Source: Sipunculus nudus (Eukaryota; Annelida; Sipuncula; Golfingiida; Sipunculidae). From it: a stretch of 64,000 nt of DNA. The DNA lies in NCBI GenBank assembly GCA_026874595.1, contig CM049313.1:18969508-19033507 (forward strand), in the 5' to 3' direction. The notes below the pieces were generated by a model. The model saw nothing but the letters and a program-made list of their open reading frames with translations. It was not told the DNA's origin and made no database searches. This document shows, in pieces, positions 3,128 to 60,262 of the stretch; positions within the stretch are counted from its first letter, which is position 1, and each line of letters opens with the position of its first letter. The translations under genes and the position numbers were made by a program.

Positions 3128-4952
3128 TATTGTATCCGCCAAAACAGAGTTTTGCGGATACTATGTTTTCAGCTGGACGCCGCCGCCGCGGCCGCGTAGG
3201 TATCCAGAGAACTCCTCCGTAATCGCTGGGCGGAATTTTCCGAAACCCGGGATTATGTTCGGGTCACATGTGAACTGCTGCGCCCCGATTTTGTTTTGAC
3301 CTCTGACCTTTCCTTTGCGCTCTGCGTCCGTTTGTGCGTCTGTTTCCACACATAAACCCACATATCTCGGGAACCGTTTGACTGATCAGGAACATTTTTT
3401 TGCACAAATGTAGCCCTCGGAGAGCTTTATAACATACACCAAAAATGGTGGCGCCACCTGCAACCATGTTTGCACAGTGTCCATCTGTTCGTCTGCCTTG
3501 GGTTAAAATCACTCATATCTCTGCAGTTACTTGACTAATTCACCTGAAATTGGGCATGCGTAAACATCCTGGATAGCTTTTCTGATTTTATGACAGGTGG
3601 CGCCACCTACATTCACGTTTACGCTGCAGACATCCAAGCTCATATCTCGGGAACCGTTTGACCGATCAGGAAAATTCTTTTGCACAAATGTAGCCCTTGG
3701 AGCGCTTTATAACATACACCAAAAATGGTGGCGCCACCTGCAACCATGTTTGCACAGTGTCCATCTGTTCGTCTGCCTTGGGTTAAAATCACTCATATCT
3801 CTGCAGTGACTTGACTAATTCACCTGAAATTGGGCATGCGTATACATCCTGGATAGCTTTTCTGATTTTATGACAGGTGGCGCCACCTACATTCACGTTT
3901 ACGCTGCAGACATCCAAGCTCATATCTTGTGAACCGTTTGACCGATCAGGAAAATTCTTTTGCACAAATGTAGTCCTTGGAGAGCTTTATAACATACACC
4001 AAAAATGGTGGCGCTACCTGCAACCATGCTTGCACAGTGTCCATCTGTTTGTCTGCCTTTTGTTAAAATCACTCATATCTCTGCAGTGACTTGACTAATT
4101 CACCTGAAATTGGGCATGCGTATACATCCTGGATAGCTTTTCTGATTTTATGACAGGTGGCGCCACCTACATTCACGTTTACGCTGCAGACATCCAAGCT
4201 CATATCTCGGGAACCGTTTGACCGATCAGGAAAATCTTTTTGCACAAATGTAGCCCTTGGAGAGCTTTATAACATACACCGAAAATGGTGGCACCACCTG
4301 CAACCATGTTTGCACAGTGTCCATCTGTTCGTCTGCCTTGGGTTAAAATCACTCATATCTCTGCAGTGGTTTGACTAATTCACCTGAAATTCGGCATGCT
4401 TATACATCCTGGATAGCTTTTCTGATTTTATGACAGGTGGCGCCACCTTCAATCAAGTTTACGCTGCAGACATCCAAGCTCATATCTAGGGAACCGTTTG
4501 ACCGATTGGGCCAAAATTTTGCATGTGTATAAATCTCACATAGCTCTCTATCATATGCAAAACTGGTGGCGCCACCTGCAGCCATGTTTGCACAGCTCCC
4601 ATCTGTTTGTCTGCCATGGGATAAAATCACTCATATCTCGGCAGTGGTTTGACATATCTGCCTAAAATTTTGCAAGTTTATACATCCCCGACAGCTCTCT
4701 TGATTTTATGACAGGTGGCGCCACCTGCATTCTAGTTTATGCAGCAGATATCCAAGCTCATATCTTGGGAACCGTTTGACCGATTGGGCCAAAGTTTTGC
4801 ATGTGTATAGAGCTTTCTGGATTTTTTCGTAGGTAGCGCAACCTACATACACAATTTGGCTGCAGACATCCATGCTAATATGCAACACTTCACCCGTTCC
4901 ACTCTGATTTAGGCGGATACAAGTAGTCGCTTGTTGACTACCCGTATTCTAG
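3128..4952 (+). mobile_element. Helitron-like non-autonomous element carrying a 280-bp dimer array
   Basis: The head at 3133-3162 is GTATCCGCC-AAAACAGAGTTTT-GCGGATAC. The 3' end has a hairpin GTAGTC-n7-GACTAC (4923-4941), then eight bases later CTAG (4949-4952) followed by T. A short hairpin shortly before CTRR|T is the Helitron 3' hallmark. The body is the GGTGGCGCCACC array. A second copy with the same head and tail is at 8157-10386. There is no Rep/helicase ORF, so it is non-autonomous. Confidence 0.65.
3380..4890 (+). repeat. Tandem array of about 280-bp dimers with GGTGGCGCCACC twice per unit
   Basis: Units repeat at 3597, 3877, 4157 and 4437, exactly 280 bp apart, nearly identical for the first three, then diverge to 4890. 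Within a unit the palindrome occurs at alternating gaps of 149 and 131 bp (3447, 3596, 3727, 3876). The two halves share CATATCTC-G and a temperature-like series of matching words, so the 280-bp unit is a dimer of diverged units of about 140 bp. Short ORFs (3597-3809, 3877-4089, 4157-4378) repeat with the units and are not genes. Confidence 0.9.
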
Positions 4953-5625
4953 TTTTAAATGAAAATATAATAGTGCGGACACAGTGGGGGAGATTTCATT
5001 TGAAGTGCACTAACAGTTGAGCGGACCTGAGACTGATATATCAGAGCACTTCCACATAACAACAGGTTTCGTGCTCCGTTCATAACAACCATGCAATTTT
5101 AAAGTTGGCAATAATATAAATACCGAAAGGAATTGTTGATTACTTGCATTTCAAGCAACTACAGGTTCTAAAATAATGATTTTGTAAATGTTTTAAATTA
5201 TTATACTTTTTAAAACGCTACACAAATGAAATAAATAGCAAATATGAAATTATGAATAAAAACTGAGACAGAAATGTAAAAATACAGATACAAACACAAT
5301 AATAAATCACAAATGTGTCATGGCTAAACGTGATGTCAAATACATGTATGTACTAAAGAAATGGTAAAACAACGAGAAAACGGGGTCCATGTAATCCGTG
5401 AGGTCCGTGCTCCAGGGTCCGTAAGTGTTTTTTTTTTATCAAATTTTGTTGCAAAACAGACTATTTTTTTTATGTTTTAACCAAACATAATATAAAATAT
5501 GTCTTTAGATACAATTATGCTAAAATATCTGGACAAATTACCATGAGAGTTTAAGAATTACAAATTTTCTTGGGTTCCGGGATCCAGAGTGGGATCCGGG
5601 TTTAACACACTGCATGCCTGAACGC

Positions 5626-8156: not shown

Positions 8157-10386
8157 ATTGTATTCGCCAAAACAGAGTTTTGCGGATACTATGTATTCAG
8201 TCGGACGCCTAACCATGCCGCCATCGCCGCATAGGTTTCCAGACAACTCCTCCATAACCACTGGGCAGAATTTTTTAAAATAGGAATTATGATCGGTCAC
8301 ATGTGAACTGCTGCGCCCTTATTTTTGGTTGACCTCTGACCTTTCCTCTCTGCCCAGCGTCCATTTGTGCGTCTGTTTCCACACATCAACCCACATATCT
8401 CGGGAACCGTTAGACCGATCAGGCTAAAAATTTTGCACAAATGTAGCCCTTTGATAGCTTTATATCATACACTTAAAATGGTGGCACAACCTGCAACAAT
8501 TTTTGCACAGTGTCCACCTGTTCATCTGCCTTGGGATTAAATCACTCATATCTCAGCAGTGGTTTGACTTTTCCACCTGAAATTTTGCAGGTTTATACAT
8601 CATGGACAGCTTTCTCGATTTTATGACAAGTGGCGCTACCTACATTCAAGTTTACTGTGCAGACATCCAAGCTCATATCTCGGGAACCTTTTGACCGATT
8701 GGGCCAAAATTTTGCATGTGAATAGATCTCACATAGCTCTTCATTATAGGCAAAAGTGTGGCGCCACCTGCAACCATTTATGCACAGCGTCCATCTGTTC
8801 ATCCGCCTTGGGATAAAATCACTCATATCTCAGCAGTGGTTTGACTTTTCCACCTGAAATTTTGCAGGTTTATACATCCTGGACAGCTTTCTCGATTTTA
8901 TGACAGGTGGCGCTACCTACATTCAGGTTTACTCTGCAGACATCCAAGCTCATATCTCGGGAACCTTTAGACCGATTGGGCCAAAATATTGCATGTGTAT
9001 AGATCTCACATAGCTCTTCATTATAGGCAAAAGTGGTGGTGCCACCTGCAACCATTTATGCACAGCGTCCATCTGTTCATCTGCCTTGGGATAAAATCAC
9101 TCATATCTCAGCAGTGGTTTGACTTTTCCACCTGAAATTTTGCAGGTTTATACATCCTGGACAGCTCTCTTGATTTTATGACAGGTGGTGCCACCTACAT
9201 ACAGGTTTACCCTGCAGACATCCAAGCTCATATCTCAGGAACCGTTTGACCGACTGGGCCAAAATTTTGCATGTGTATAGATCTCACATAGCTCTTCATC
9301 ATAGGCAAAATTAGTGGCGCCACGAGCAACCATTCATGCACAGCGTCCATCTGTTCGTCTGCCTTGGGATAAAATCACTCATATCTCAGCAGTGGTTTGA
9401 CTTTTCCACCTGAAATTTTGCAGGTCTATACATCCTGGACAGCTTTCTCGATTTTATGACGGGTGGCCCCACCTACATTCAAGTTTACACTGCAGACATC
9501 CAAACTCATATCTCGGGAACCGTTTGACCGATTGGGCCAAAATTTTGCTTGTGTATAGATCTCACATAGCTCTTTGTCATAGGCAAAACTGGTGGCGCAA
9601 CCTGCAACCATTTATGCACAGTGTCCATCTGTTCATCTGCCTTGGGATAAAATCACTCATATCTCAGCAGTGGTTTGACTTTTCCACCTGAAATTTTGCA
9701 GGTCTATACATCCTGGACAGCTTTCTCGATTTTTTGACGGGTGGCCCCACCTACATTCAAGTTTACTCTGCAGACATCCAAACTCATATCTCGGGAACCG
9801 TTTGACCGATTGGGCCAAAATTTTGCTTGTGTATAGATCTCACATAGCTCTTCATCATAGGCAAAACTGGTGGCGCCACCTGCAACCATTTATGCACAGC
9901 GTCCATCTGTTCATCTGCCTTGGGATAAAATCACTCATATCTCAGCAGTGGTTTGACTTTTCCACCTGAAATTTTGCAGGTTTATACATCCTGTACAGCT
10001 TTCTCGATTTTATGACAGGTGGCCCCACCTAAATTCAGGTTTACTCTGCAGACATCTAAGCTCATATCTTGGGAACCGTTTGACCGATTGGGCCAAAATT
10101 TTGCTTGTGTATAGATCTAAAATAGCTCTTCATCATAGGCAAAACTGGTGGCGCCACCTGCAACCACTGATGCACAGCGTCTATCTGTTCATCTGCCTTG
10201 GGATAAAATCACTCATATCTCAGCAGTGGTTTGACTTTTCCACCTGAAATTTTGCAGGTTTATATATGCTAATAAGCAACACATCTCACTCTATTCCCCT
10301 TGCCACTTAATCCATGCCTCACTTCACCCGTCCCACTCTGATTTCTGCGGATACACATAGTCGCTTGTCGACAACCCATATTCTAG
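8157..10386 (+). mobile_element. Second Helitron-like element with the dimer array
   Basis: Head at 8160-8190 (GTATTCGCC-AAAACAGAGTTTT-GCGGATAC), tail with a decayed AGTCG-CTTGT-CGACa hairpin (10359-10373) and CTAG at 10383-10386 followed by T. The body from about 8390 holds some seven dimers of 276-280 bp (start points near 8593, 8870, 9149, 9426, 9704, 9983). This copy is longer than the one at 3128-4952, so the array length varies between insertions. Confidence 0.65.
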
Positions 10387-11562
10387 TTTTAAAATGTCCT
10401 TGTCTGAAACTTGCAGGTCCGAAATGTCCATTTTGCTATAATAATAATGACTAAGTTAGATATGCAGGACTTAAGAGGATCAATATTAACTTTTAAAAAT
10501 GAACCTCCATTCATACTCCCAAACTTTGCACAGGTTCGCATTAGGCCTGTAGGCCTTGTTAGAAAGCTACAGCATCCACAGCCACAAAGCTAGAAGAAAC
10601 CCACATTCCCTCCACCGATCCCAGCAGCGGAGACCCAGCTATGCCATTCGAGAGCCGAACTTGATCTTGTGAACGACACTGTTTCGAGACCCATAGCCCT
10701 TGAACTTGCAGTTTTGGCCATTTGGATCGTATTAACTGGGTTTCCCAGTAATGCAAGTTTTAGCAAGTTTTTTTATGAGAGTGGCGTTGACCTTGAATAT
10801 TGCCATATATGGTGAAACTCACAAAATCATTAATATCTCAATAAGGGATGCATGGATTGGTCCAAAAATCAACTTGACTGAAGATCTTAGATAGTATTGT
10901 CATGAACCAGAAACTGGTGGCGCCATCTGTTATTCTTTTACTTGTTTTTGTGCTGTTTAATACCCCAATCATTGCCTCTTAACAGTACTGTGAGCATAAT
11001 AAGTCAAAAACTAATGGACAGATTTCTTTCATATTATGCATATACATAGACATGGATTATGGGATGATGTATATATAAATTGGGTCATGACCTTTCCTAT
11101 GAGAGTGGCTTTGACCTTGAATATTGCCATATAATAATTTGGTGAAAATCACACAAAATCATTAATATCTCAGTAAGTGATGCATGGATTGGTCCAAAAA
11201 TCAACTTGACCGAAGATCTTGGATAGTGTTGTCATGTACCAGAAACTGGTAGTGCTATCTGATATTCTTTTACTTGTTTTCGTGCTGTTTAATACCCCAT
11301 CATTGCCACTTAACAGTACTGTGGGCATTATAAGTCAAATACTAATAGACAGATTTCTTTCATATTATGCATATACATAGACATGGGTTAGGGGATGGTG
11401 TAAATTGAAATTGGGGTGATGACCTTTTCTATGAGAGTGACCTTTTCCTAGAGAGTGGTCTGATATAAATTGTTGCTGAAGAAGGGGGGCCTATTCTTAA
11501 AGGGGAGGGGGGATTAATTGTCTTGGGATACTATGGCACCTGAGGTGGCAAGAAATATCTAG
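10387..11562 (+). mobile_element. Right part of the split Helitron-like repeat, ending CTAG|T
   Basis: Monomers of about 330 bp at 10770-11090 and 11093-11400 share ATGAGAGTGGC-TTGACCTTGA, ATGCATGGATTGGTCC, CTGGTGGCGCCATCTGTTAT and TAATACCCC. They match 1480-1850. The 3' end AAATATCTAG|T is at 11562, 11 bases after a weak GCACC/GGTGGC stem. 10387-10760 is unassigned. Confidence 0.5.
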
Positions 11563-17548: not shown

Positions 17549-20500
17549 GTAGGTGGAGATTTTGTCTTTTGTGCCCAGACACTACAAAATGTGTGCTAAC
17601 TTGAAGACTAGATTTGAAAAATCATTGGTCATATCTGCCCTTGGTTCGCATCTAAACCGGATTACTCATAACTGGTTTACTTCAGTCTCAAAGTAGTCCG
17701 CTTTGCATCCACACTGTAGTTCAATTTACCCAAGCCTAAATCAGGTTATTCCATAAAACATGAGTTTGCAGTAAGGCTGCCCTTGTTTGTTAACCAGATT
17801 AACCCTGCTGCAAAAAGTGATATTTTCGGGGAAAGATTAGGTCAAATGGTAGCTATAAACTGGCCTGATGTAGACTAGAATTGGATTAAATTGGCCTGTA
17901 TGCAGTAGGAATCAGTTTACTGTAAACTGGACCAAGTAAACTGAACTACTGTAGACTTGCCTTACAAGTGGACTACAGTAAACTGATGTGAATTAGTGGC
18001 TTAGTGTGACCAAGAGACCTAGTGAGTAAATCGATTCATGATCCATATTATTTGCTAGTGCAGATACGTCTATTGATAAGACCAAAAATATGTTGGTTTC
18101 TCATGCACCCTTAGCATTGGTTTTGACCTCCTGCATTAAAAGTGTTTATTTTTTAGCCAGTAAAAATAAGTTAGCAATTTTGGGCTCAAACTGCTTATGC
18201 ATTTCTTTATGGATAAAAATAGTAAATTTTGATAAAATTTCCTTCAGTTATATTGGGCTTTAACTGGTTTAGCAAAACAACTCTGTTTTAATTATGTTGT
18301 CCCCTGGTCATATATACCATATGGACAGAGGATTTGGTCCTGTGGGCAACTTTTACTAGTTTGCTTAATTAAATGAAGGGCTTATTTAAATGTCCTTATT
18401 TTTCCTCACCATTTCTACAGTCCAGGATTGATATATTGGTATATATAATCAGGGTTATAGCCACGCTGGTGGGTGCCATTTGGGGATAGCCAGGCCTGGC
18501 TTCCGCTGGCCAGCACAAAGTTAATATTTCCAATCCACCAACCGGCACAAAAGATCTTAAAGATCTTAAAAAAAAACAGCTGTAACGAGCAATGAAACTT
18601 TGGTTATTTATTACCCCAAACTGCATTTCATTTGTACCTTATAATTATGTTAACAAAATTGATTCAGTCAGGAGCCAAAATTATCAATAAAAATAGTTAT
18701 AACACAAAGAACAAAGCAAAGATAAAGCTTACATATTCCAAAACCAAGTGTGTGCACTTAGTGTAAGTATGACCATGCACCTCCTCTTGTTAAAATTCTT
18801 TAAATTTAGTTGGCTCTCAAATTTGTACTACATAAATGTTTATTCTCTATATATGTGGATGTGTAAATCTAGTTAATCATGAACTAAGTGGTCATTTTTC
18901 CATATTTTCCAAAGTAGAGGAGTGTGTATTATTCATGGAACTTCTTAATAATGTCTGTTATGTGAACTGTCTAGGACTCAATGCTTTATTAGTTGTTTTA
19001 TTTCTCAGGTGTATTGGAATGACCCATTATGGAATTCTGCTGGACAACACTATGCTAGTGCTCCTGAATTTGATTGGTTCTTCACTCAATGTAATCTACT
19101 CTGTACTCTACCTATACCTGGTCAAAGATAAGGTAATGTATATTATATAAAAAACAACGTTACTGATCTAGCACATATAGAATCTTTTAGGATTATCTGA
19201 AAAAATCACCCTCATCACAGAACATCCCTCCCCAAAGTCTTGAGTGGACCAGCCCAATTTACATTGACCCATGCAGATATATTAACATTTAGAAATAATG
19301 TATTTCTGTAGAATACTTTTCATGCAACTGATTATGTATGACAAACAACTAGTGTTATGCCAAACCTGATGACCTTGACCTTCATTTTCAAGGTCATATC
19401 TGCCAAAATAAAAATTTTTTTGTGCACCCCACTTTGTGAAAGTATTTCACATCTTGTCTTCAAATTTAGTAAACAACTTGTTTCAACAAAGTTCATGCAT
19501 GAGTTCGAAAACCAGCAACCTTGACCAGGATCTTCAAGGTCAAATATAATTATTGTCTTATGAACATAATAACTTATGAAGTAATGTGTTTTTTTCCCCC
19601 AGATTCAACACACAAGTTGTTTCCCCTGAGTTCTTGGAAAAGTACAGTTACTGGTGACCTTGACCTTGATTTTCAAGGTCAAATCTGGGCAATCCTAGGA
19701 TAATTGTAACCCCATAACTTTGAAAGTACTGATCAGATGTTTCTTCAAATTTGACACAACAGTTCTTTCTGCCAAAATCTCGGAGGAGTTATAATATTGG
19801 TGACCTTGATCTTCAAGGTCAAATCTGTTGAAATCTAGTCCTGTATGTCAGCATTTTTATACATGACTGTCATTGATTCAGACATGGTGAAACCTTCATT
19901 GGGTTTTTGAATACTGTAAAGGGCACATGTGTAAATCTTTCTTGTATTACCAGGTCTGGCCCCCCTCAAAACATTAAACAATGTTAAGCCTCATTTATAG
20001 CCACATTTATTTCTTTAAGCCAATATAATTTTATATTAGCCACATTCATGTATTTTTTGTCACAGTATTATTTTTGGGTTAAAATTATAATCCATCACAA
20101 AAAAACATTACTTGTTATGTGTTTGCATGTATCACAATTGTATTTCTGAAAGATAAAAAAACTATTACTTGATTAAATGACACTGTATTTCATAGTGACA
20201 TCCAAGTGAACATAAAGTAGGAGGTATTCAACAGTACATCTGCCACTTTATCCAAAATAAGGTCTTAAGTCTTTTTTTTTCAATTTTGATGGTTAGTTAC
20301 ATTGAAAGTGGGCTAAGATATTCAGTTGCCAAAACTTAAGTCACTTGACATTTTCCCTAGCCATTCTGGTTGAACTTTAGTTAAGGCTTAAGATTATATA
20401 AGGCTCACGGGCCCTGATTAGTGTTAACATAAATACAGTGTAAAGTGTTAGTTCCCTATGTCACTACATGTAATCAGCTCCTTAATTTGATTTATCTAAA

Positions 20501-23500
20501 ATCAATCAGCCAATACATGAAGGTTACAGGTCTTTTACAGGGCTCTTCCTGACTGTCAGTATTTTAGTTTGAATAAAACCAGAAAGTGGATATATTTGTG
20601 TTATGTGAGTGCATCGTAAAAAAAAATTTGCTATTCATATACATATAGATTAATAAGTATGTAACATAATGGATTGAAAATTGAATTATATTGAATCAGT
20701 CAAATGTGAAACCAATCACTCTTGGAATATTTCAAATCCTAGAAAGTATGAAATCATCTGTGTCCTCAATGCAGCAAGTAGAAGGAAAAAAAAATACAAT
20801 TTTGCAGCACCAAGAATGTTGTCACCTCTTGCAGTGACATTTTAAATTCTGCCCCAGATAGTCACAAATGGTATTGGGAACCCTCTAGGGAGAACCAGAC
20901 TCATGGAGTATCTTTGTACATGTTTTTAGCAAGAGTATTGTTTTGTTGACTTTCCTTGAAGGTCACAATGTGTGCAAGCTTAGTATCATGACCAAGGGGT
21001 CACTTGTTTGGGGATGTGTTATGTACGGGGGAGATTCATTTTTACTCTGACCATATGCTGGTTCATTTTGAAGTCTGCCCAACAGTATAAAGTGTAAATT
21101 GCTACAAGGCAGCAAATATTATTACATCAACGTAAAATTAATCTGAATTTTGTGTTTAATGTGCTGCTTTTTGTTATCACATTTAAAAAGCCCTATGACC
21201 ATCTCTCCCTGTTCCTGTTTTAATGCCTTCTTCCCCAGATATTGTCAAAGTAATAAAAAATGTGGATGCTAAGTCAAGCTTCCACTTATAATGAATGTCA
21301 GAGCAACATGACCCATGACTACCAATTACACCGTTTTACCATAGTTGAGTTTATGGCCTGGCTCACTGTTTCTGAGTTCTGTTTGTGAGAGTCACCCAAA
21401 TTCTGCAAATTTTGTACTGATCAGGTGATTCATTGTTTACATTGCCAACAGTAAATGGATAGGTTGCTGGCAACAGCTCTGCTCATGGTTAATCATTTAA
21501 TGGGTACAAGTATACTATTAAGGTCATGCATAGTTCATGGTTAGGCCAATTTCCTTGCATCTGTTATGATGAAAAATTAAAACATAATGTCACCTTATCA
21601 TAAAGGTCACCATAAAAAAAATTGTTTTCTCCCTTTAAAAATGATATGTACACATAACTGGTTAAGCCTAAGGTGCATTCTCCATATCTTCTCAATTTGT
21701 TTTATGAAATTTAAACTTTAAGTACATTGGCCTAATTTCAGATTACATTTTAAATGAAAGTGCAAATATCTCACATTCCAGCGTATTGGTGGAATTTGGT
21801 TCTGTTTAAATTATTTTCTAATTATCATTAGCTTCTCTGTAATTTTAGTATGTTAAAACATGCATCTTTCATGTTTCAGCCAAAGCCTCTGTTCTACATG
21901 AGCCTGTTTATTCTGTACTTTGTGGTGTTGTATGGTTATGTGTTGGGAGATGTTGTGGATGATAACACCAGAGCTGAAACTATTGGGAAATGGTCCAGTA
22001 CTGTCACTATGGTGACTGTCTCCCTGCCTGCAGTTGAAATTGTAAGTATAAAAAGAACAGTGATAAAGAAGTTGATAAAATATGCAAAGTGAACTTATAA
22101 CATGCTGACCTAAAATGCTACAGTCTGTAAGAATTATATAAAAACATGCTCTTAGGCCAAAAAGATGAAAGGAATATTTCCCAGGCACTGCCCTCATCAA
22201 TTTTAAACCCTGCATCAAATTTTTAGCTCAGCTGACTATAAGTCAGCTGAGCTATAGTTATGGTCCTTTGTCCGTCCGTCCGTCCGTCCGTTAACAGGGC
22301 ACGTTTTAAAACTGTTGGACCTACGAATCCAAAATTCTGCATACCATTAGATGTCCCCAAAATCTCCTACCATACCAAAAATTGGGTCATTAGACCTTCG
22401 TTCCTTCGAGATATTAAGAAAAAACCTCCGTTTTCCATAAAAAAGCCATTGTTTCACTTCAAGGCTGCCTAATATCAAAACCACTGATCTGTTTTTGATC
22501 AGATTTAGTATTCATATTCTTCCATACATTTTCTGTGCACATACAAAAAATTAGGTCAGTATTGGGTATTATTTTGAAGTTATAGGCCCAAATATAATGC
22601 AATTTTTTAAAAATCAGGAAATATTTTTGCTCACTTAACATGAGAATTGCTGAAGCTGGAGACTTTTTTTCAGGAATATAACTTTATTTAATCAAGATTC
22701 AATTGTTTACCCAAAATTAGATCTGAATTTTGCAAATTGTTCAAGTTATTAGCATAAATAAAAAATCAGTACCTTAAATTTTGTCCAAATTTGGCAGTGG
22801 CACGTTTTTTCCCTGTAAGTACTGTTGATTTTATTTTCACAGCATATATACATAAGGATTTAATCTTTTAAAATCTGAAATTTCAAAGAAATTGTTTGAA
22901 AAGAGTAGCTTTTATTTAAGTTTTCATACACCATGTCAAGTGTTGTTTACATCTGGCCCACCTAGTAGTACAGCCTTCACTTGCATTATGTAACCCACCC
23001 CAGGCAGCTTGCCTTGACCCATCTTGGCCACTACTAGCAGGCTTCCCCTCTGCCCTGCACTCACCCCCCCCCCCCCCAGCTGGTGCATAAACTAGATGAA
23101 TGTTATAATTTTCTGTATTTTATTTTATTCTTGGACATGCTACATTTTAGATTTTGTATTGTACCACCAGGGTTACTATGATTAAAGTGCACATTTAATT
23201 GTGTCCACAAAGTGATGTATTGCTATGAAAGTGTGGATGTTCATCAGATAAGTAATGCTTTACTTCAGAAGAGTAAAACTTCACCAGGTGTGAAATTGAC
23301 TATTAATTCCAGTAATTAATTATAGCTGAGATTGTAATTAGCATAATGATATTGTTTGTCCCTCATTCAACCAACAGTGTGTATACTTTATTTGAAAAGT
23401 TGTTTTTATTTTATCAAATGTACTGAATCTTTTATTTTTTTCGGTGAATAAAATTAAGCATGTACTGAAAACTCCAATGTGCAAAACGTTTTAATAGGGA

Positions 23501-26500
23501 TTCAAGGAATAATTTTGTAGATGCCATGTTGTTATATATAAACTTAAATGCATTATTCCCTTGAAAGTGAAATGAAGGTATTAGTCCATTCTGTCCACTT
23601 GACTGTCCATCTGCAAATTTTTCATATGCATCACAGTATCTCAAAACTTTTACTGTTTTTTTTCATGACATCATATATTGAGAACTTTACTATAACCAAG
23701 TAGGAGGGCCCTTTCCTCTTAGCTTCTCATATGCTTATATAAATAAAAAACATTACAATAGAATATTTTTCATATTTTGCATTTGCAAAAATTTCAAACT
23801 TAAGCTGGTTGTCGTGACCCATGGGTCCTTTGTTTATATTTAGGATTCTCACCATCATTGTTTGGCTAAAACTGAATAAATACCAGACATGGTGCGAATA
23901 CTTGGCAAATGTATATGAATATGAATATGAATATGTACTCCATTATAAAATTTCTTGCATAAGAATGGGAATTCAGGTAAAAATGAAAGTATTTGAATAC
24001 CAGTGCAAATACTTTCAAAATGTATTCATGAATGCATTCATGAATATATTCTATAATATTATTTTAATAATCACTTCAGTTATATTTTATTTAAAAAATC
24101 ATATGATTCTCTTATTATTTTTAATAAAAATTATATTTGGCACAATATTTGTTATTAAATTTTAATAAATAGTTAAACTCTTTATCTTATATGTGCTGCT
24201 TATCAGTTATATGGCCAGGTCAAAATCTGTATGACAGTGGCACTCCATTTGTTAATAAAATAAATGAAATCAATCTCTTCCCTGTCTCCAAAGAAACTAT
24301 CAAAATCATACATAAGCTTAACACTAACAACTCATAATACAGCTTATATTTATTTCCACACAAAAGCAGCATGTGCCTCATTTCAAAATCATATTTTTTT
24401 ATCTTATATAACAGCTGAGCGCCGTGACCCATAGGTCCCTTGTTTTATTTAATAACTCTCCTATTTTGAGCTCCAGCCTTTTAAGAAGATGAAATAATAC
24501 AATTCTGATAAATTTTCCTTAGTTTTGTAGTGCTTTTACTTGCTAAGCATAAATATCTGTAATTATCATACTTTTCCTTGATCATATGAAATATTTGTAG
24601 AAACGTACAAAAAAAGGTAACAAATAAAAAATCGCCACCTGCATTGATTTCTGTAAAAAAAAGTGCCTGAGAACCAAACCTTGCCTAAATGATACAAAAT
24701 ATTATACTCCTTGTGCAGTGGATATATACTGTAATTGCTCTAATAATTACTTCAACACAACCAATAATAGCAGGGTATCACAGGTTTTAAACTTGGATGC
24801 ACAATGCAAAACAGAGCTCTCATTTGTCTAAACCGACTTGGCTCTGTGCCAACTGCTTGAATGCAAAACCCAGCCAACCATGCCATAGAAAGCAGTAGTT
24901 TTGTGGATTAGGAGTTACAGAATGAATGCAGCTTGTAACCATAGTTTTTTTAAGTGCACAGTATATACAAAATTTCTTTAAAAAAAGCAAAATATATGCA
25001 TCAAATGATACACTTGAACATTAAGAGTTTTATCAAGTGTTTTTATTATTTTTACAGACAATGGATGTAAAGCATAAGACAAAAAAAATTGATAAAATAA
25101 GTTAAATCTCGTACTCATAAACTCAAAGACTTTCAGCTGGTGTTCATGCTGCAACTAGTGTGCTTTTAGTTAATGCCGACAGGAAATGATAGGCATGGAA
25201 TAAAAACTACCAGCTGTTTGTTTTATTTTTTATTGATGCCTGTTATTATATTTTCAGATAGACAATTTGAAGAATAAGAATGCGGATGGTATGCCAACCA
25301 TAATGTTACTGGGTGGTTTATTGTGTGGTAGCTCATGGCTTATATATGGCTTTATGCTGCAAGATCCCAACATATATGTGAGTATATAAACTTAAAGCGT
25401 ACTCTTAAGGAAGATGCACTCACTTCTGATCAACCATTGATGATATGGCATCAAAAATATATGTTGCCATATTATTTACATGAAAATGATTTTGGCCTGT
25501 AGTCCTTTTCATCCCCTCATGTCCACCTGTTCTTTTTATGAAAATTTTTATTAGTTACATTTCTAGGGACACAATTATGGTGTAGAGGATGAAAGGACTT
25601 GTTTTCAACAAGGTAAAAAATTTCCAGCCTTACACCTTATTTAAAAAAGAATCATTTGTAAATATGAGAAATCAGTCTATATTTTACAACATATCAGACC
25701 CATTTATGATGGTCAAGGTCATTGGTCACATGCAAAAACAGCCTCAATTGACAGCTTTTGATAAGGTGATGTCATGTGAACACTCTAAAAAATATAGCCA
25801 GCTAAAACAAAGATGGCTACTAATGCAGGGACACATCATATCTGCCAGATCATAGTGAAGAGGCTACTAAAGATGTGAAAAATAAGCTGGGGATTTATTG
25901 TAAAATTCTAAATTGCCATATTAGGATGTCACTTGCATATGTAGTTTTCCAGGAAATAATTGAAAGAAATAAACTTTTTAGAAAATTTTTTACAAAAAAA
26001 CAGGTGGACAGCAGTTGGTACATGAAACAGACTATAGCTGACTGTAAGCCGTTCTGAGCTCATGTGGTGACCCTCTTTAATATGGCAGTCCTATCAATCC
26101 AGTAGTTGACAAGCCATCTGTCAAAACTGTCAGGCATACAAAAAAAAGTTTTGTTCTACTGATTCGTCGCTCCAATTTTTAGCTCAGCTGACTATAAGTC
26201 ATCTGAGCTATAGTCGTAGTCCATTGTCTGTCCGTCTGTCCGTCCGTCTGTCTGTCCGTCCGTCCGTAGATGTGGCACGTTTTGAAACCGTAAGACCTAG
26301 GAATCCGAAATTCAGCATAATGTTAGATGTCCCCAAGATCTCCTACCAAGCCGAAAACTTGGTCTTTGCGACTTCGTTCCTTTGAGAAATTAAGGAAAAA
26401 CCTCAATTTTTTATTAAAAACCTATTTTGACACTTCAGGACTGCCTAATATCAAAACCACTCATCTGTTTTTCCTCATATTTAACATAAATATTCCTCTA

Positions 26501-29500
26501 TATAGTTCCTATATACATGCCAGAAATTATGTCTGTATTATATAATTTTGAAAAAGTTATGGGCCCAAACATAATGCATTTTGTAAAAAATTAGGAAAGA
26601 TATTTGATCACTTAACACAAAACATGTTAAAGCTATGGACTTTTTTACAGTAATATAACTTTAATTAATCAAAATTAAATTGTACACCCAAAATTAGATC
26701 AAAATCTTTTAATTTTTTTAAAATATAAACAAAAATAAAAAATTTGTACCTTAAATTTTGCCCAACTTTCACCGTGGCACGTTTTTTTCCTGTAAGTACT
26801 GTGGATTTAATTTTCACAGCATGTTTTTGTTAGCATTTTGTCTGTTAACACCAAAAATTTGAAACCAGTTGATCAAAAACTGTAGATTTTATTCAAGTTT
26901 TCAAGCACCATGTAACATATTGTTTACATCAAGCTAGTGTTATGCAGTTTGCAAGAGCTCAGCTCCCCAGCTTCAGCTCTCAGTTCCTAAAATTTGGCAT
27001 ACAATAAGAAGTCTCCAAAATCCCCTACCATGCCAAGAATTTGGTCACTAGGACTTATTATCGAGATAATATTGAAAAACTTCGTTTTTCCATAACAAAC
27101 CCATTGTTTCACTTCAAGACTGCCTAATATCAAAACTACTGATCTGACTTTAATCATATATAATATACATCTTTTTCTATTCATTTTCTATGCACATGCC
27201 AGAAATGATGTCAGTATTGTGTAATTGTTTTAAGTTATGGGCCCAAACATTATGCACTTTGTAAAAAAATCAAGAAATATATTTACTCCCTTAACAAGGG
27301 GATTGCTGAAGCTAGAGATTTTTTGTCAGGGATGTAACATTATTTAATCAAGATTCAATTTAATACCCAAAATTAGTTCTGAATTTTTCAAATTTTATAA
27401 GGATTTCAGCTTTTTAGTTTAGAAAGCTGAAAGAAATTGGCCAAAAATTGTAGCTTTTATTAATATTTTTATGAGACCATGTCAGACCTTGACTCTCTCC
27501 AGCCCCTCTTGAGTCACCTGTATGTTGACCTTGTTGAACTTTCAGCAAATTATGCATGCTTGAGGTGAGACATACACTGGGGCAGCCTGGCAGCTTATGG
27601 CCAGCCACAGTTGATCCAGGTGTCCAACCCAACTCATCTAGTAACCATTTAACCAACAACATAACAATAAACAATAAATTAATAAATTTTTATTGGTTTT
27701 TAATAACAAATTAAAGAAAAATAGAAAAGGAATTTGTTAGTTTATAATAACAGGAAATTAACTTGCAGTTACTGATGATATAAGAATCTTGTATCAATGG
27801 ATAGAATGTCATGTATTCCAAATAACACCATGCAGTCACCTATGGTATTTTTCAGTTCAATTTTAATGATAAAAAGGTAAATCATATTATTCATTACTAA
27901 TCATTAAGGATCATATGAAGGAAATTAATGATAGACAAAGATGCAGTTGATAATAGTAATCTAGATTCCTACTGTGTCTAGTGTGTACATTGATGTGAAA
28001 TTAGTCCAAAATGAATATATGACATTTATTTTTTTAAATATAAATAAAAGCCATAAAACCAGGTACTTATGATCATTATTTAAAGGTGTGAATTTTGTAT
28101 ATTCTGGATTCTCAACATCATTGTTTGGTGAAAACTGTGCAATTGTATTTAAATACGAATATGAATATGTACTCCATTATAAAATTGCTTGCATAAAGAA
28201 TGGGAATTCAGGTAAAAATGAAAGTATATGAATACCAGTGCAAATACTTTCAAAATGTATTCATGAATGCATTCATGAATATATTCTTTAATATTATTTA
28301 AATAATCATTTCAGTTATATTTCATTTTAAAAAATTACGATTCTCTTATTATATTTAATAAAAATTATATTTGGGACAATATTTGTAATTTTTTTTAATA
28401 AATAGTTAAACTCTTATATTATATGTTCTGCTTATAAGTTATATGGCCAAGTCAAAATCTGTGTGACAGTAGTACTCCATTTGTTTATAAAATAAATGAA
28501 ATCAATTCTCTTCCCTGTCTCCAAAGGTACTATCAAAATCATACATAAGCTAAACAACAACAACTCATAATACAGCTTATATTTATTACCACACAAAACC
28601 AGCATGTGCCTCATTTCTAAATCATATTTTTTATCATATATAACAGCTGAGCGCCGTGACCCATAGGTCCCTTGTTTGAGGATTGAACTTATTTTTGCAA
28701 ATGAAGGCCAGGCCCTTAGTAAATTTTGTATTTTCTAGGCCACCCAGCAAATTTCCACACAATGTGTCTCGACCAATTAAAAAAAAACCTTTTTGTTCCA
28801 GTCTGTAGAACTATACATATTTTGTGTGGCCTTAAGGATACAGAATTTCCATTTAACTTAAAGGGGCCCATTCTTTTACCAGGCATATTAGGTATACATA
28901 AAATCCTGTAAAGTGTTCTTTGGAAATATGTTATCATCTGCCAAGATTTTGTTTTGAAAACACAAAAATAAACTTGCACCTGGCACAATCAGTGGCATGA
29001 CAGAAAACATAAAGATAGCATCTCACTCTATTTTCATGAATCAAGATGGTAAACAATAGTAAAAATATCTTCTCTATTTGTGATTCATGACAAGTATATC
29101 TTCTTTCTCTGAGTGTAAGTGTTTGTACAAGTGCAATTATTGTACCTTTGGCCATTAGGTCTTGTTATAGTAAACAAAGACAAAGGTATTGTATTTATAA
29201 ATACATAGATAAACAATATCTTAAACAGCTGAAAAAAGATAAACTTAGCCTGTAAGCATGGTAATATCACTAAAAAACTTTATTCAGTCAAACTGAACTG
29301 ATAGCGGAAGGTAGTATACATTATTGCAAGTAACTAGGTACCTTTAACAGGTAATCAAATTGCAGAGTTTCATATGTTAATATACTGCAAACTATTTTAA
29401 TCATTAATTTGAAGAAGATGTAAAATATAACATTTTTAAGAGTGTTTATATTCATTGATTTCTGTTATATGAATATGTTTGATATATTATGTGGTTTTCT

Positions 29501-31230: not shown

Positions 31231-31545
31231 TTAGGAGCCAAAAAAAAAGGTCTGGTTCTCAGCCACTGCCCATGTCATTTTTAACCCCCCGCATCAGAAA
31301 TTGTTATTTTGATTTTCTACTTTCAAGAAGATAAAATAATACAATTTTGAGAAGATTTCCTTTTTTTATGTAGTGCTTTAACCTGTTTAGCAAAAAAATT
31401 CTGTTATTATCATGCTTTTCCTGATCATATGAAATTTTTTATTGAAACATACAAAAAAAGGTAAAAAAATTTTAAAATTGCCAGCCCACACTGATTTCTG
31501 AAAAAAAGTTCCTGAGAACCATACCTTTTATTTTTTCGGCCTTAC
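31231..31545. mobile_element. TGGTTCTCAG MITE, uninterrupted copy with about 30-bp inverted ends
   Basis: The left end GGAGCCAAAAAAAAAGGTCT-GGTTCTCAG pairs with the right end CTGAGAACCATACCTTTTAT-TTTTTCGGCC. About 315 bp, no ORF. Related copies are at 40927-41235 and, split, at 22152-24690. A right end alone lies at 45740-45780. Confidence 0.75.
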
Positions 31546-35286: not shown

Positions 35287-36858
35287 CATGGTGTAAACAT
35301 GACACAGTTGTTGATCAATCAGTGCTTCATAGTCTGTACACTTTTAAAAATGACATGATTGAATCCACTCCACCACTGAGTTTCTCCTGGTCTCCACACA
35401 GTGTAAACATGACATGATCTAGTCTGCTCTACCGCTTGGTTCCTCCTGGTCTCTACACAGTGTAAACATGACATGATATAGTCCACTCCACCGCTGGGTG
35501 CCTCCTGGTCTCTACACAGTGTAAACATGACATGATATAGTCCACTACACCACTGGGTGCTTTCTGGTCTCTACACAGTGTAAACATGACATGATATAGT
35601 CCGCTCCACTGCACTGTGCCTCCTGGTCTGTACACAGTGTAAACATGACATGATATAGTCCACTTAACTACTCGTTGCCTCCTGGTCTCCACACAGTGTA
35701 AACATGACATGATATAATCTGCTACACTGCACTGTGCCTCATGATCTCTACACAGTGTAAACATGACATGATATAGTCCACTCCACCACTGGGTGCCTCC
35801 TGGTCTGTACACAGTGTAAACATGACATGATATAGCCCGTTCCACTGCACTGTGCCTCCTGGTCTGTACACAGTGTAAACATGACATGATATAGTCCACT
35901 CCACCGCTGGGTGCCTCCTGGTCTCCACACAGTGTAAACATGATATAGTCCACTCTACCACTTGGTTCCTCCTTGTCTCTACACAGTGTAAACATGACAT
36001 GATATAGTCCACTCCACCACTGGGTGCCTCCTTGTCTCTACACAGTGTAAACATGACTTAATATAGTCCACTACACAGTGCCTCCTTGTCTCTACACAGT
36101 GTAAAAATGACATGATATAGTCCACTCCACCGCTGGGTGCCTCCTGGCCTGTACACAGTGTAAACATGACATGATATAGTCCGCTCCACTGCACTGTGCC
36201 TCCTGGTCTGTACACAGACTAAATATGACATGATATAGTCCGCTCAACTGGACTGTGCCTCCTGGTCTGTACAAAGTGTAAACATGACATGATATAGTCC
36301 ACTCTACTGCTTGGTTCCTCCTTGTCACTACACAGTGTAAACATGACATGATATAGTCAACTCCACTGCTGGATGCCTACAAGTCTCTTCACATTGTAAA
36401 CAGGATAAAGTTCACTCCACCGCGGGGTGCCTCCTTGTCTCTATACAGTGTAAACATGACATGATATAGTCCACTCCACTGCTTGGTGCCTCCTGGTCTG
36501 TACACAGTGTAAACATGACATGATATAGTCCACTCCACCACTGGGTGCCTCCTGGTCTGTACACAGTGTAAACATGACATGATATAGTCCACTCTACCGC
36601 TTGGTTCCTCCTTGTCTCTACACAGTCTAAACATGACATGATATAGTCCTCCCCACCGCTGGGTGCCTCCTGGTCTCTACACATAGTTAACCTGATATAG
36701 TCCACTGCATGGTGCCTCCTTGTCTCTACATAGTGTAAACATAACATGATATAGTCCCCTCCACTGCTGGGTGCCTCCAAGTCTCTACACTTTGTAAACA
36801 TGATATGGATAGTCCACTCCACTGGTGGGTGCCTCTTAGTTTTTATACGGTGTAAACA
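35287..36858. repeat. 59-bp minisatellite, about 26 units
   Basis: The unit GTAAACATGACATGATATAG-TCCACTCCACCGCTGGGTGC-CTCCTGGTCTCTACACAGT recurs with a strict 59-base step, best between 35392 and 36660. A few units are shortened (35935, 36050, 36690). Variants alternate between GCTGGGTGCC and GCACTGTGCC. Since 59 is not a multiple of 3, every third unit is in the same frame, yet long - strand ORFs (35453-35995, 36412-36822 and others) stay open in all three frames. Confidence 0.95.
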
Positions 36859-36862
36859 TTGT

Positions 36863-40926: not shown

Positions 40927-41240
40927 AATTAGGCCAAAAATTAAAAGGTGTGGTTCTGAGGCACCGCCCACAACAATTTTAAACCCCCGCATCAAATTTT
41001 TTTATTTTGATTTTCAATACAGACTCACTGATTTTTAGTTCCAGCTGCTCAGACATATCTTTCAAGAAGATTAAATGATACAATTCTGATAAAATTTCCT
41101 TTGTTTTGTAGTGTTTTTATTTGTTTAGCAAAAAAAAATGTTATAACATGCTTTTACGTGATCGTATGACATTTGTAACAAAACATACAAAAACAGGTAA
41201 AGAAAACAATTGCCTGCACGCATTGATTTATAAACAAGTG
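40927..41240. mobile_element. TGGTTCTCAG MITE, copy with decayed right end
   Basis: Starts TTAGGCCAAAAATTAAAAGG and TGTGGTTCTGAGGCACCGCCC and follows the 31231 copy to about 41235. It is uninterrupted at the place (CATCAAATTTTTTTATTTTG) where the hairpin element sits in the 22152-24690 copy. Confidence 0.65.
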
Positions 41241-41859
41241 ACCCATGGGTCATGATGCTCCTCTGCCCTCACTTTTCCCTTCTCCGAACCCCATCCCAAA
41301 GTCAGCCTCAGTAAGCAAGAACAAGATGAATCAGATATATTCATACTTTAATATTTTGTATAACTATTCGTCCATAGGTACCTATGTACATGCCAGAAAT
41401 TATGTCAATATTGTGTAATATGTAGACATAGTGGGCATCACAATAATTTACCTTGTCAAGACTAAAGAGATATTGTGTCATACAGTCACAAATTCATAAA
41501 TCACTTCATCAGCATAGTTAATCATAACATCATATCTGTCAAATTGAAAGCTTGCAGACTACCATACACTTTAGATCCTTCAACAAATAGCATTATCATC
41601 ATTCTACTACTGCTTATTACTGCTGTCATTGCATTCATATTTGCTCAAATATATCACAATTTTCAACCCCTCCTAAATAAATAAAAAATAAACCACTGTA
41701 TTTGACTCTATTAATCCATCAGTCAGGTAATTTCATTTATCTTTTACTCACATATTACATTACATTCCTTTAAAATAGCCCAACATGTCCATGATATTCA
41801 TAAGCTTTATCGACTCGATATAGTATCACAGTGGAGAAACATTTATAGTACAATCACGA

Positions 41860-42420
41860 TCAGCTGAGCGCAGTGACCCATGGGTCCCTTGTTTTCTCTA
41901 TTTTTGAGACCTTCAAAGATGCAGTCATCCGTTAACATGGCACAAATTGTAACCATTGGTCCTAGATTCTTCTAACTTGACTTCCAGTGAGGTCTTTGAA
42001 AAATATCTTTGGAAACTTGAAATTAGGTCTCTGTTACCCATATTCTCTGAGCTATGGGGCTTATAAGCACCCCCCAGCATTATTAAAAATTTGATACCAA
42101 GGCAGGGCACAAATCATAAACATTGGACCTGGAATGTTCTGTCCTAAAATCTAGGGAGGTCCATGAAAAGTCTCCTTGGAAACTTGAATTTAGATCTCTG
42201 GTACCCATATTTTCTGAGCTATGGGGCATATAAGCACCCCTCAGAATAATTGAAAATTTGATACAGAGTAGGGCACAAATCATAACCGTTGGACCCAGAA
42301 TCTTCTAACTTGATCTCCTGAGAGTTCCTCAAAAGTTTTCCCTAGAAACTTGAAATTCGATCACTGTGATCTATATTCTCAGAGTTTTGGGGTGTGTTTA
42401 AGGACCCCAGAAATAATGCA
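41860..42420 (+). repeat. Hairpin-element 3' end followed by tandem units of about 165 bp
   Basis: CAGCTGAGCGCAGTGACCCA-TGGGTCCCTTGTTTT lies at 41861-41895. Three units then start GGCACAAAT at about 41939, 42106 and 42270 and share GGAAACTTGAA, TCTCTG-TACCCATATT and GAGCTATGGGGC. Reverse copies of the same unit lie at 45190-45330 and 45510-45660. Confidence 0.75.
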
Positions 42421-42499
42421 AAATACACACATATTGCCAGATTCCTCAGGAAAGGCTGGTTTGATTGTCATCAAATTTGTTATGTTATGCTTATGTGGA

Positions 42500-44937
42500 T
42501 GTAGAAATATTCTATTGCAATGTTTTTCATTTATATAAGAATATGAAAAGCTAAGAGGAAAGGGGCCCTCCCAGTTCGTTATAGTAAAGTTCTAAATATA
42601 TGATTGCAAACTAGTACTCTGACAAGACTGTCATGAAGAAAAACAGTAAAATTTAGAGATACTGTGATGCATATGAAAATTTACAGATGGACAGGCAAGT
42701 GGACAGAATGGACTAATACCTTTATTTCACTTTCAAGGGAATAATGCATTTAAGTTTATATATAATCCTATTTTTTTTAAGCATATCCATTTTTTTCATT
42801 AAGAAGTTTTTATCTGAATCATTTTTTTATTTACAGGTTTTATAAATTTTTAATAAAAAAACCTAAAAAAATAAGTGAAAATATTAGAATTGTTGCAAAA
42901 GTTGCAATCATCATATATCCAGAGTGTAGCTCATATTGGGTCATATTATGCATACACATATATTTTATTTTTTTAAATCATAAATGTTTAAACTGAATTT
43001 AAAAGAAAATAATGCCACAACATGGCATCTACAAGAATATTCCTTGAATCACTATTAAAAAATTTTTCACATTGGAGTTTTCAGTACATGCTTAATGTTA
43101 TTCACCAAAATAAAATAAAAGTAAATTTGATAAAGTAAAACATCTTTTCAAATAAAGTATACACACTGTTGGTTGAATGAGGGACAAACAAAATCATTGT
43201 GCTAATTACTATCCCAGTTTTAATTTATTACTGGAATCAATAGTCAATTTCACACCTGGAGAAGTTTTTACTCTTCTGAAGTAAGGAATTACTTATCTGA
43301 TGAACATCCACACTTTCATAGCAATACACCACTTTGTGGACACAATTAAATGTACACTTTAATCATTGTAACCCTGGTGGTACAATACAAAATCTAAAAT
43401 GTAGCATAGCCTAGAATAAGAATGAATCAAATACAGAAAATAATAACATTCATCTAGTTTATGCACCATCTGGGGGGGGGGGGGGGGAATGCAGGGCAGA
43501 GGGGAAGCCTGCTGGTAGTGGCCAGGCTGACCCAAGGCAAGCTGCCTGGGGTGGGTTACATAATGCAAGTGAAGATTGTACTACTAGGTGTGCTAGATGT
43601 AAACAACACTTGACATGGTGTATGAAAACTTGAATAAAAGCTATTCTTTCCAATCAATTTCTTTGAAATTTCATATTTTAAAAGATTAAATCCTTATGTA
43701 TATATGCTGTGAAAATTAAATCAACAGTGCCAAAGTTGGACAAAATTTAAGGTACTGATTTTTTATTTATGCTAATAACTTGAAAAATTTGCAAAATTCA
43801 GATCTAATTTTGGGTCAACAATTGAATCTTGATTAAATAAAGTTATATTCCTGAAAAAAAGTCTCTAGGTTCAGCAATTCTCATGTTAGGTGAGTAAATA
43901 TATTTTCCTGATTTTTTAAAAAATTGCATTATGTTTTGGCCCATAACTTCAAAATAATACCCAATACTGACCTAATTTTTGGTATGTTCATAGAAAATGT
44001 ATTAAAGAATGTGAATACTAAATACGATCAAAAACAGATCAGTGGTTTTGATATTAGGCAGCCTTGAAGTGTAACAATGGCTTTTTTTATGAAAAACTGA
44101 GTTTTTTTTCCTTAATATCTCGAAGGAACAAAGTCCTAATGACCAAATGTTCGGTATGGTAGGAGATTTTGGGGACATCTAAAATTATGCCAACAGCCTG
44201 GGGAGCATAGAGATGTGCACTGAATGACCTTCAGTCATCAAACTGGACTGCTTGACAATGTAAGGGAATACAACAAGAGCCTCCAAAAAAATTAAATAAC
44301 TAGCCTAATTTTGCAGCTTTTATTTTCAAGTTTCAGATTTTAACAGATTAAATCCTTATGTATACATGCTGTGAAAATTAAATCCACAGTACTTACAGGA
44401 ATAAAACGTGCCGTGGCCAAAGTTGGGCAAAATTTAAGGTACCAATTTTATATTTTTGCCAATATTTCAAAAATTTAACAGATTTTGATCTAATTTTTGG
44501 TATACAATTAAATTTTGATTAATTAAAGTTGTATAACTGGAAAAAAGTCCCTACCTTTAACACTTTTGGTCTTAAGTGACCAAATATCTTCCTGATTTTT
44601 TTACAAAGTCCATTATGTTTGGGCCCATAACTATTTTAAATTATACAATACTGACTTAATATCTGGCATGTACATAGGAACTATATAGAGGAATATTTAT
44701 GGTAAATATGAAGAAAACCAGATGAGTGGTTTTGATATTAGGCAGTCCTGAAGTGTGAAAATAGATTTCTAATAAAAAATTGAGGTTTTTCCTTAATATC
44801 TCGAAGGAACAAAGTCCTATTGACCCAATTTTCGGCATGGTAGGAGATTTTGGGGACATCTAACTGTATGCCGAATTTCAGATTTGTAGGTCCAACGGTG
44901 TCGAAATGTGCCAGTCTTACGGACGGACATCTGGACG

Positions 44938-44968
<31 letters not shown>

Positions 44969-45026
44969 AGACGGACGGACGACGGACAACTACTATAGCT
45001 CAGATGACTTATAGTCAGCTGAGCTA
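42500..45026 (-). mobile_element. Hairpin-ended TCCG element, copy 3, inverted
   Basis: The hairpin at 44996-45026 has one mismatched arm and is followed leftwards by GGAC/AGAC runs (44932-44990). The body matches copies 1 and 2 in reverse: GGTAGGAGATTTTGGGGACA, TGGTTTTGATATTAGGCAG, the G-run at 43471-43487 against the C-run of copy 1, and TGATGCATATGAAAATTTAC. The match with copy 1 continues to about 42500. Two head-like segments (44030-44200 and 44700-45000) suggest a tandem or fused copy. Confidence 0.75.
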
Positions 45027-45029
45027 AAA

Positions 45030-45790
45030 ATGTGTTAAATTTTTTTTAAAGATCCAGGTGGCACCACCAGTCTGCAAGAACTGATGAAACACTCCATGAT
45101 GAATAAGCATACATAGAATCAGGGTGATCAATGCATTAGTTGTTCAGATACTGGAGCTTTTGTATCAAATTTTAGTTATTCTGGGGGGGTACTTGGAAGC
45201 CCCATAGCTCACAGGTTTTTGGTAATAGAGGCCTAATTCGAGATTTCCAAGGAGACTTTTCATGGGCCTCCCTGCATTTCAAGACTCTAGGTCTAGGTCT
45301 AGTTGTTACAATTTGTGCCCTGTTAACAGATGACCACATCTTTTTAAGGTAAAAAAAAATTGAAAAAAAATCGTAAAAATAAAAAAATACAGGTGGCGCC
45401 ACCAGTCTGCAGAAACTGATGAACCACTCAATGATCAATATCCATGCAAAGAATCATGGTGAGCAATGCATTAGTTGTTCAGATACTTGAGCTTTTGTAT
45501 CAAATTTTTTCTGGGGGATAATTCGGAGCCCTATAGCTTGAAGAATATGGGTAACAGAGACCTAATTCCAGGTTTCCAAAGAGATTTTTCATGGACCTCT
45601 CTGGATGTTAAGTGAGAAGATTCCAGGTCCAGTGGTTATGATTTGTGCCCTGTTAAAGGACAGACAGACAGAAGGCCGGACAAACGACGGACAAAGAGTG
45701 ATCGCTATAGCTCAAATGACTTACAGTCAGCTGAGCTAAAAAATGTGCCTGAGAACCAAACCATATTTTTTTTGGCCTTACTGATATCTA
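45030..45790 (-). repeat. Reversed units, a fourth hairpin (45708-45738) and a lone MITE end
   Basis: Variant GGTGGCACCACC at 45058 and exact GGTGGCGCCACC at 45393, then reversed 165-bp-type units. A GGACAGACAGACAG run and the hairpin TAGCTCAAATGACT-TAC-AGTCAGCTGAGCTA close the stretch. It is followed by GTGCCTGAGAACCAAACC, the MITE right end. The same hairpin-next-to-MITE order is seen at 22152-24690. Confidence 0.65.
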
Positions 45791-46017: not shown

Positions 46018-46359
46018 TCATATTTGCTGGACATTTTCACCTTTTACGTCAAGATTCTTGTGAGCTTTAAGCACGTGTCGCATAGCAGTGTTATGTCTGG
46101 TATGTGCTGCTCCACATATTATACATATATATCTTTGTCCCAGGTGCTGAGTTCTTATATGTACATGCATGTTTGCCCTGTATTTGACTGACAGACGGCA
46201 GATAGGACAGTGAGAGCCTGTTGGACTGTCTGTTTTGTGTAACATCAGATGTTTTGCCAGCAGCTTGGTTGAAGGAAAGTTTCGATCACACAAGGGACAA
46301 ACTTTGATGCTTTCTGTATATGATGACACAATGAATGACATGGCCTTCTGTTGTCTGTC
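46018..46359 (-). CDS. Zinc-finger gene, 3' coding exon with all three C2H2 fingers
   Basis: Starts at 46359 after TTGTTTTCAG and ends at the TGA at 46020-46018. It opens DRQQKAMSFIVSS and carries the three fingers CPLC...H...H, CPIC...H...H and CIIC...H...H. The tail is KNLDVKGENVQQI. All twelve zinc ligands are present. Confidence 0.88.
   Translation of the reverse strand, partial: DRQQKAMSFIVSSYTESIKVCPLCDRNFPSTKLLAKHLMLHKTDSPTGSHCPICRLSVKYRANMHVHIRTQHLGQRYICIICGAAHTRHNTAMRHVLKAHKNLDVKGENVQQI

Positions 46360-60207: not shown

Positions 60208-60262
<55 letters not shown>

Follow-up and report, generated by a model that had tools for sequence, protein, structure and literature searches.

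A probable family of non-autonomous Helentrons (HINEs) in a 64-kb stretch of the Sipunculus nudus genome

Element A and its surroundings

The window, by which we mean the whole stretch of 64,000 nucleotides of contig CM049313.1 that was analysed, contains four heads of one family of gene-less, hairpin-headed repeats (A, B, C and D), a plus-strand member reduced to a fragment (E), and copies of an older MITE family in which A and D lie (Table 1). In the first-pass annotation, element A was described as a mobile unit that begins with a perfect 14-base-arm hairpin and a tetranucleotide run and has a defined 3' end, and both ends were found as described. The hairpin sequence is TAGCTCAGCTGACT-ATA-AGTCAGCTGAGCTA, with perfect arms and a 3-base loop, and none of 200 shuffles folds equally well as DNA (z = -5.6). 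A scan of the whole window for perfect 12-base arms with loops of 3-12 bases gave only two other places, one at 23984 (within A) and one in a TA run at about 60212-60259, and no perfect hairpin with 12-base arms arose in any of five first-order Markov simulations of the window. At the 5' terminus, the T residues of the element are indistinguishable from those of the target. The 3' end reads GACCCATAGGTCCCTTGTTT (24426-24445). Three features had been overlooked earlier: the subterminal repeats, the 3' palindrome, and an extra tail within A (23816-23835).

Table 1. Positions in the window of element A, its relatives and the MITE copies
Feature	Positions	Strand	Remarks
Element A, gene-less hairpin-headed repeat	22220-24445	+	lies within MITE
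A, 5' terminus T5	22220-22224	+	at least 5 T's before AGCTC in 4 of 4 heads
A, 5' hairpin, 14-base arms	22224-22254	+	subTIR AGCTCAGCTGA at 22225-22235 and its complementary inverted repeat
A, (GTCC)n microsatellite	22270-22292	+	heads B, C and D have GTCC/GTCT-like runs too
A, core	22339-23532	+	90% identical to copy C (44190-43017); includes ~680-bp unit repeated in B and C
A, internal relic 3' terminus GACCCATGGGTCCTTTGTTT	23816-23835	+	pattern match and tail alignment
A, 3' segment	23896-24445	+	92% identical to copy B (28130-28677)
A, 3' subTIR CAGCTGAGC	24412-24420	+	counterpart of head subTIR
A, 3' near-palindrome GACCCATAGGTC	24426-24437	+	5 of 6 pairs
A, 3' terminus CCTTGTTT	24438-24445	+	similarity of six tails stops here
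Copy B, head to tail	26176-28677	+	core unit repeated, 679-bp spacing
Insertion D in MITE	41232-45743	-	head 45743, tail 41251-41232; members nested inside
Copy C	42505-45030	-	head 45030; sits in T-rich spacer of D core repeat; core unit spacing 681-684 bp
Fragment E	41348-41894	+	core piece 41348-41419; subTIR 41861; tail 41875-41894
Interrupted MITE, left half	22152-22219	+	BLAST 22152-22224 vs 40929-41001, 81% over 74 bp, E 7e-12
Interrupted MITE, right half	24446-24682	+	BLAST 24478-24682 vs 31320-31527, 82% over 211 bp, E 9e-49
MITE copy without insertion	31231-31545	+	clean empty site for D, poorer for A
MITE copy	40927-41231	+	empty site for A; right end cut by insertion D

Six-frame translations of A, B and 41238-45742, with stops written as X, gave no Pfam match above cutoff. 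With E values up to 0.1 admitted, there were no matches at all in B or 41238-45742, and the sole match in A, to RecO_N_2 (E 0.058), lies far below its cutoff (13.5 bits vs 27). Nor was any Helitron domain found in 20 of the 23 open reading frames of at least 100 amino acids (Pfam, E up to 0.05), the remaining three, which lie in or over a 59-bp tandem array, having been omitted from the search; below cutoff, there were matches to Telomerase_RBD (12115) and DUF2070 (23818). Rfam gave no match in the window at the gathering score. A tRNA-derived SINE was considered and is unsupported, the tRNA scan of the window having returned zero. Exact head and tail patterns had no matches in collections of viral and genome contigs, which comprise viruses and prokaryotes and hence carry little weight here, and the GTCC run was found in none of the literature matches listed.

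Shared ends of the family

The four heads agree from at least five T's onward, in an alignment whose start was set by us at the T's. Upstream of these, the only letters shared, as judged by eye, are A (-1) and C (-4), and at the A site both letters can be assigned to the target, since the empty copy has the same ones. Six tails (A, B and E on the plus strand, the relic within A, D on the minus strand, and a diverged one at 20990) agree up to TTGTTT and then differ. The end signatures of the family are T5-AGCTCAGCTGA for heads and GACCCATRGGTCNCTTGTTT for tails, and the common boundaries expected of a unit that moves with defined ends are present within the window. The tail pattern gave eight matches, and those at 13360 (plus strand, without TTGTTT) and 31183 (minus strand, with a shorter GATC..GGTC stretch) are not counted. 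Sequences at 46899, 50589, 55794 and 62378 that differ from AGCTCAGCTGA at two positions at most, as well as further loose matches at 37112, 52174, 15129 and 11625, were not taken as heads, since the adjoining printed bases contain no hairpin or microsatellite.

Element A had been thought to lack terminal inverted repeats. Inverted repeats do exist, but they are subterminal (subTIRs; AGCTCAGCTGA/CAGCTGAGC). On both strands of the 64 kb, CAGCTGAGC occurs eight times, always within a head (five; two in A and one each in B, C and D) or a tail (three; A, B and E), where base composition predicts 0.15 occurrences, a figure that is only a guide because the word was chosen from the ends. The subTIR pair AGCTCAGCTG/CAGCTGAGC matches exactly over 9 bp in A and B and over 10 bp in E. 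From the 3' subTIR to the 3' end is a distance of 25 nt, and in three of the six tails the subTIR is degenerate. In all four heads, the 5' subTIR is accompanied by a complementary inverted repeat, after which comes the microsatellite; the resulting hairpin is perfect only in A, and each of the four head hairpins folds better than all 200 of its shuffles (z -2.8 to -5.6).

Close to the 3' end, five of the six tails contain the palindrome GACCCATRGGTC, and the sixth has a variant of it. The word is found at five places in the window, against about 0.005 expected. Of the six tails, three pair without a mismatch and those of A and B have one mispaired position, and the bases that follow are CTTGTTT in five tails and TTTGTTT in the relic. 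As a fold, the palindrome does not surpass shuffles in any of the four tails examined (z -0.67 to 0.50); for the D tail, the sequence folded was four bases short at its end.

Insertion sites and core modules

The claim that two MITE halves flank element A was upheld, both by BLAST (81% and 82%) and by the flanks of A, which once joined align with both of the other MITE copies (31231 and 40927). These two copies had been regarded as uninterrupted empty sites. The one at 31231 is indeed without insertion, but the right end of the one at 40927 is split off by the nested minus-strand insertion at 41232-45743. As empty sites for A, both align with the joined flanks, but the copy at 31231 lacks a clean T-run: its equivalent site reads CATCAGAAATTGTTATTTT, and about 40 bases are missing just beyond. 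The better empty site is therefore the MITE at 40927, which has the same CATCAAATTTTT and seven T's, two more than the A site. Here the sequences to compare are CATCAAATTTTT and TATTT to the left and right of A and CATCAAATTTTTTTATTT in the empty copy, and nothing beyond T's is duplicated.

For D, the site is GGCACATTTTTT on one side and ATAAATCAATGC on the other vs GGCACTTTTTTTTACAGAAATCAATGC in the empty copy, with no duplication beyond the T's. On the minus strand, CAGGCACATTTTTT-element-ATAAATCAATGC may be compared with CAGGCACTTTTTTTTACAGAAATCAATGC in that MITE half which adjoins A. Apart from the number of T's, the D site differs from the empty site by an extra A on the left, and by ATA in place of ACAG on the right. 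The target is thus a T-run without target duplication at both insertions that have an empty copy (A and D), a comparison that rests on these two insertions within the window.

Insertion D is a nest of 4.5 kb made up of the D core, copy C, a plus-strand array and the 3' end of E. The MITE at 40927 meets the minus-strand tail (41251-41232) at about 41231, and its missing end (TGGTTCTCAGGCAC on the minus strand) is found just past the minus-strand head at 45743. These MITE halves suggest that the D head and the tail at 41232 were formerly one element. The D core repeats with a spacing of about 335 bp, and the array (41939-42306, plus strand) consists of 167-bp units that are 76-80% like the D core. 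The similarity of copy C to A stops at 42505, and no tail of its own was found for C. The core piece and the 3' end assigned to E probably derive from one copy.

The cores of A, B and C are built from a different unit of about 680 bp, which is present twice in B and twice in C (the two copies being 74% and 77% alike) and once in A. Spacings in B and C are 679, 681 and 684 bp. A period of about 170 bp within this unit was not singled out by whole-copy autocorrelation; in B, lag 166 ranks sixth with a value of 0.317, vs 0.354 for lag 679. The core of A (22339 to 23532) is 90% identical to C vs 77-81% to B, and the last 550 bases of A are 92% identical to B. The relic terminus (23816-23835) adjoins the start of the B-like segment, 23835-23874 matching 28098-28137 of B at 87.5%, and there is no such terminus at the matching position in B. 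Judged from these similarities, A is a mosaic, in which a core closest to C and a 3' segment closest to B meet at an old 3' terminus. This junction could have arisen by bypass of the terminus, by recombination, or by a nested insertion with subsequent loss. We consider it possible, if on balance doubtful, that A is a HINE caught in the act of growing, in which a C-like element had its 3' terminus bypassed, gained a second 3' end downstream, and then moved as a composite unit that ends like B.

Class assignment and mobilisation

The class of element A, at first called unclear, can be resolved from the architecture of the ends and from published signatures. The family very probably consists of HINEs, that is, non-autonomous Helentrons, which are gene-less derivatives of rolling-circle transposons that retain only the end signals. 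This assignment is based on the T-run, the 5' subTIR with its complementary inverted repeat, the GTCC microsatellite, the variable core, the 3' subTIR, the palindrome and TTGTTT, along with insertion into T-runs without duplication and the absence of any protein domain match above cutoff. In PMC4067079, HINEs are characterized by subTIRs, T-rich insertion sites with a variable number of T's and no modification of the target, and a palindrome that lies 8-35 bp before the 3' end. There is a close likeness to Cg_HINE of Crassostrea gigas, for which PMC7492417 describes a 5' subTIR with a complementary inverted repeat and a GTCY/GTCC/GTCK microsatellite, a 3' subTIR with a palindrome, a TT target and no target site duplication. 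The present family shares the 5' arrangement with its GTCC-like microsatellite, the central repeats, the 3' subTIR and palindrome, and T-rich TT insertion without duplication. It differs in its exact subTIR, which is 9-10 bp here vs the usual 11-12 bp in Cg_HINE, and in the B/C core unit of about 680 bp; the two were compared by architecture, not by sequence. The heads may also resemble repeats of molluscs.

HINE-Mo of a mite and DINE-1 of Drosophila, as described in PMC4067079, are similar to the present elements in their subTIRs, near-3' palindrome, T-rich target, variable numbers of end T's and lack of coding capacity, and DINE-1 is additionally similar in having a microsatellite and an inverted repeat next to the 5' subTIR. 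Unlike in these two, with which comparison was by description and not by sequence, the 3' subTIR lies nearer the 3' end here; in mite HINEs, according to PMC4067079, it lies 38-60 bp away from that end. The bivalve Pearl family (PMC7492417 and PMC5139131) is also modular, with short arrays of central repeats of about 160 bp, comparable to the 167-bp units at 41939-42306. Again by description rather than sequence, it differs in that the D core itself repeats at about 335 bp and in that the core of A, B and C is a different one.

Several observations weigh against HINEs. The exact subTIR, at 9 bp (A and B) or 10 bp (E), is under the published lengths and does not reach the 11 or more identical base pairs used in PMC4067079 for family grouping, although this 11-bp rule serves to group families and not to decide Helentron status. 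In addition, the subTIR is degenerate in half of the tails, the 3' subTIR lies nearer the end than in mite HINEs, the 3' palindrome does not outdo shuffles in the four tails that were folded, the D site departs from its empty site in more than the number of T's, the window offers empty sites for just two insertions, and no autonomous partner was seen.

A derivative of a canonical Helitron, which would begin with 5'-TC, end with 3'-CTRR and be inserted between A and T (termini as given for oyster Helitrons in PMC7992393), would account for the position of the palindrome, 8 nt before the 3' end, and for the lack of target duplication. The ends found here are instead T5-AGC and TTGTTT, both sites with an empty copy show insertion into a T-run rather than between A and T, and subTIRs are present, so that we regard this origin as improbable. 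Still less probable is a foldback or TIR-type DNA transposon (MITE) moved by cut and paste, which would fit the hairpin at one end and the inverted repeats near both, but not the subterminal and asymmetric position of these repeats or the two empty sites without duplication. That the hairpin element and the MITE form one composite family with no insertion, as their adjacency at two of the four heads (A and D) might suggest, is already refuted within the window, where A and D sit at separate points of the MITE and run opposite ways relative to it, B and C are flanked by other sequence, and the MITE at 31231 carries no insertion; the mobile unit does not include the MITE.

As HINEs, the elements would be mobilised in trans by the rolling-circle mechanism of a Helentron Rep/helicase, as is expected from their class. 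The Rep/helicase, encoded elsewhere, would nick the T-run, a single strand would be displaced as far as the 3' palindrome, acting as the signal, and the displaced strand would be joined into another T-run. The core would be unneeded for recognition, and so free to change.

These elements are a known type of mobile DNA, one seen before in flies, mites and oysters, and not a new class, and they leave the picture of the HINE class unchanged. They add another genome with dense oyster-type HINEs (a single family has four heads within 64 kb), and two insertions whose empty sites can be read in copies of a single MITE family. The mosaic copy A bears on the exchange of central modules: if terminus bypass did occur and were common, it would account for the exchange of HINE cores between ends that do not change.

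The MITE and a diverged HINE-like terminus

The MITE that hosts the insertions is about 315 bp long, with roughly 80% similarity between copies, and its inverted termini are centred on TGGTTCTCAGGCAC, outward of which lie an A-run and TAGGCC/TAAGGCC-like letters. Two insertions of HINEs (non-autonomous Helentrons) were received in its T-runs. The diverged HINE-like 3' terminus, for which no head was found in the window, is perhaps that of another HINE subfamily. The zinc-finger and SWEET ORFs are possibly host exons.

Coordinates of repeats and ORFs in the window
Feature	Position	Strand	Details
MITE	22152-24682		split
MITE	31231-31545		
MITE	40927-41231 with 45744-45787		split
Diverged HINE-like 3' terminus	20990-21009		GACCAAGGGGTCACTTGTTT
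Minisatellite	35345-36859		59-bp unit, about 26 copies
ORF, C2H2 zinc finger	46018-46380	-	PF00096, 28 bits (Pfam cutoff 25.2)
ORF, MtN3/SWEET sugar transporter	18836-19150	+	PF03083, 26.4 bits (Pfam cutoff 23.7)

A second hairpin-headed family

Another family, with a plan like that of the HINE, is represented by two copies, at about 3128-4956 and 8158-10390. Its head hairpin is GTATCCGCCAAAACAGAGTTTTGCGGATAC, from which the copy at 8158-10390 differs by one base, and its tandem array has a unit of 278-280 bp. The 3' part consists of GCGGATACA, a short inverted repeat and CTAG, after which comes TTTTAAA; the inverted repeat reads GTAGTC..GACTAC for the copy at 3128-4956 and TTGTCGACAA for the other. 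In combining a CTAG end with subterminal inverted repeats (subTIRs), this family recalls the oyster Helitrons with subTIRs, as these are described in PMC7992393.
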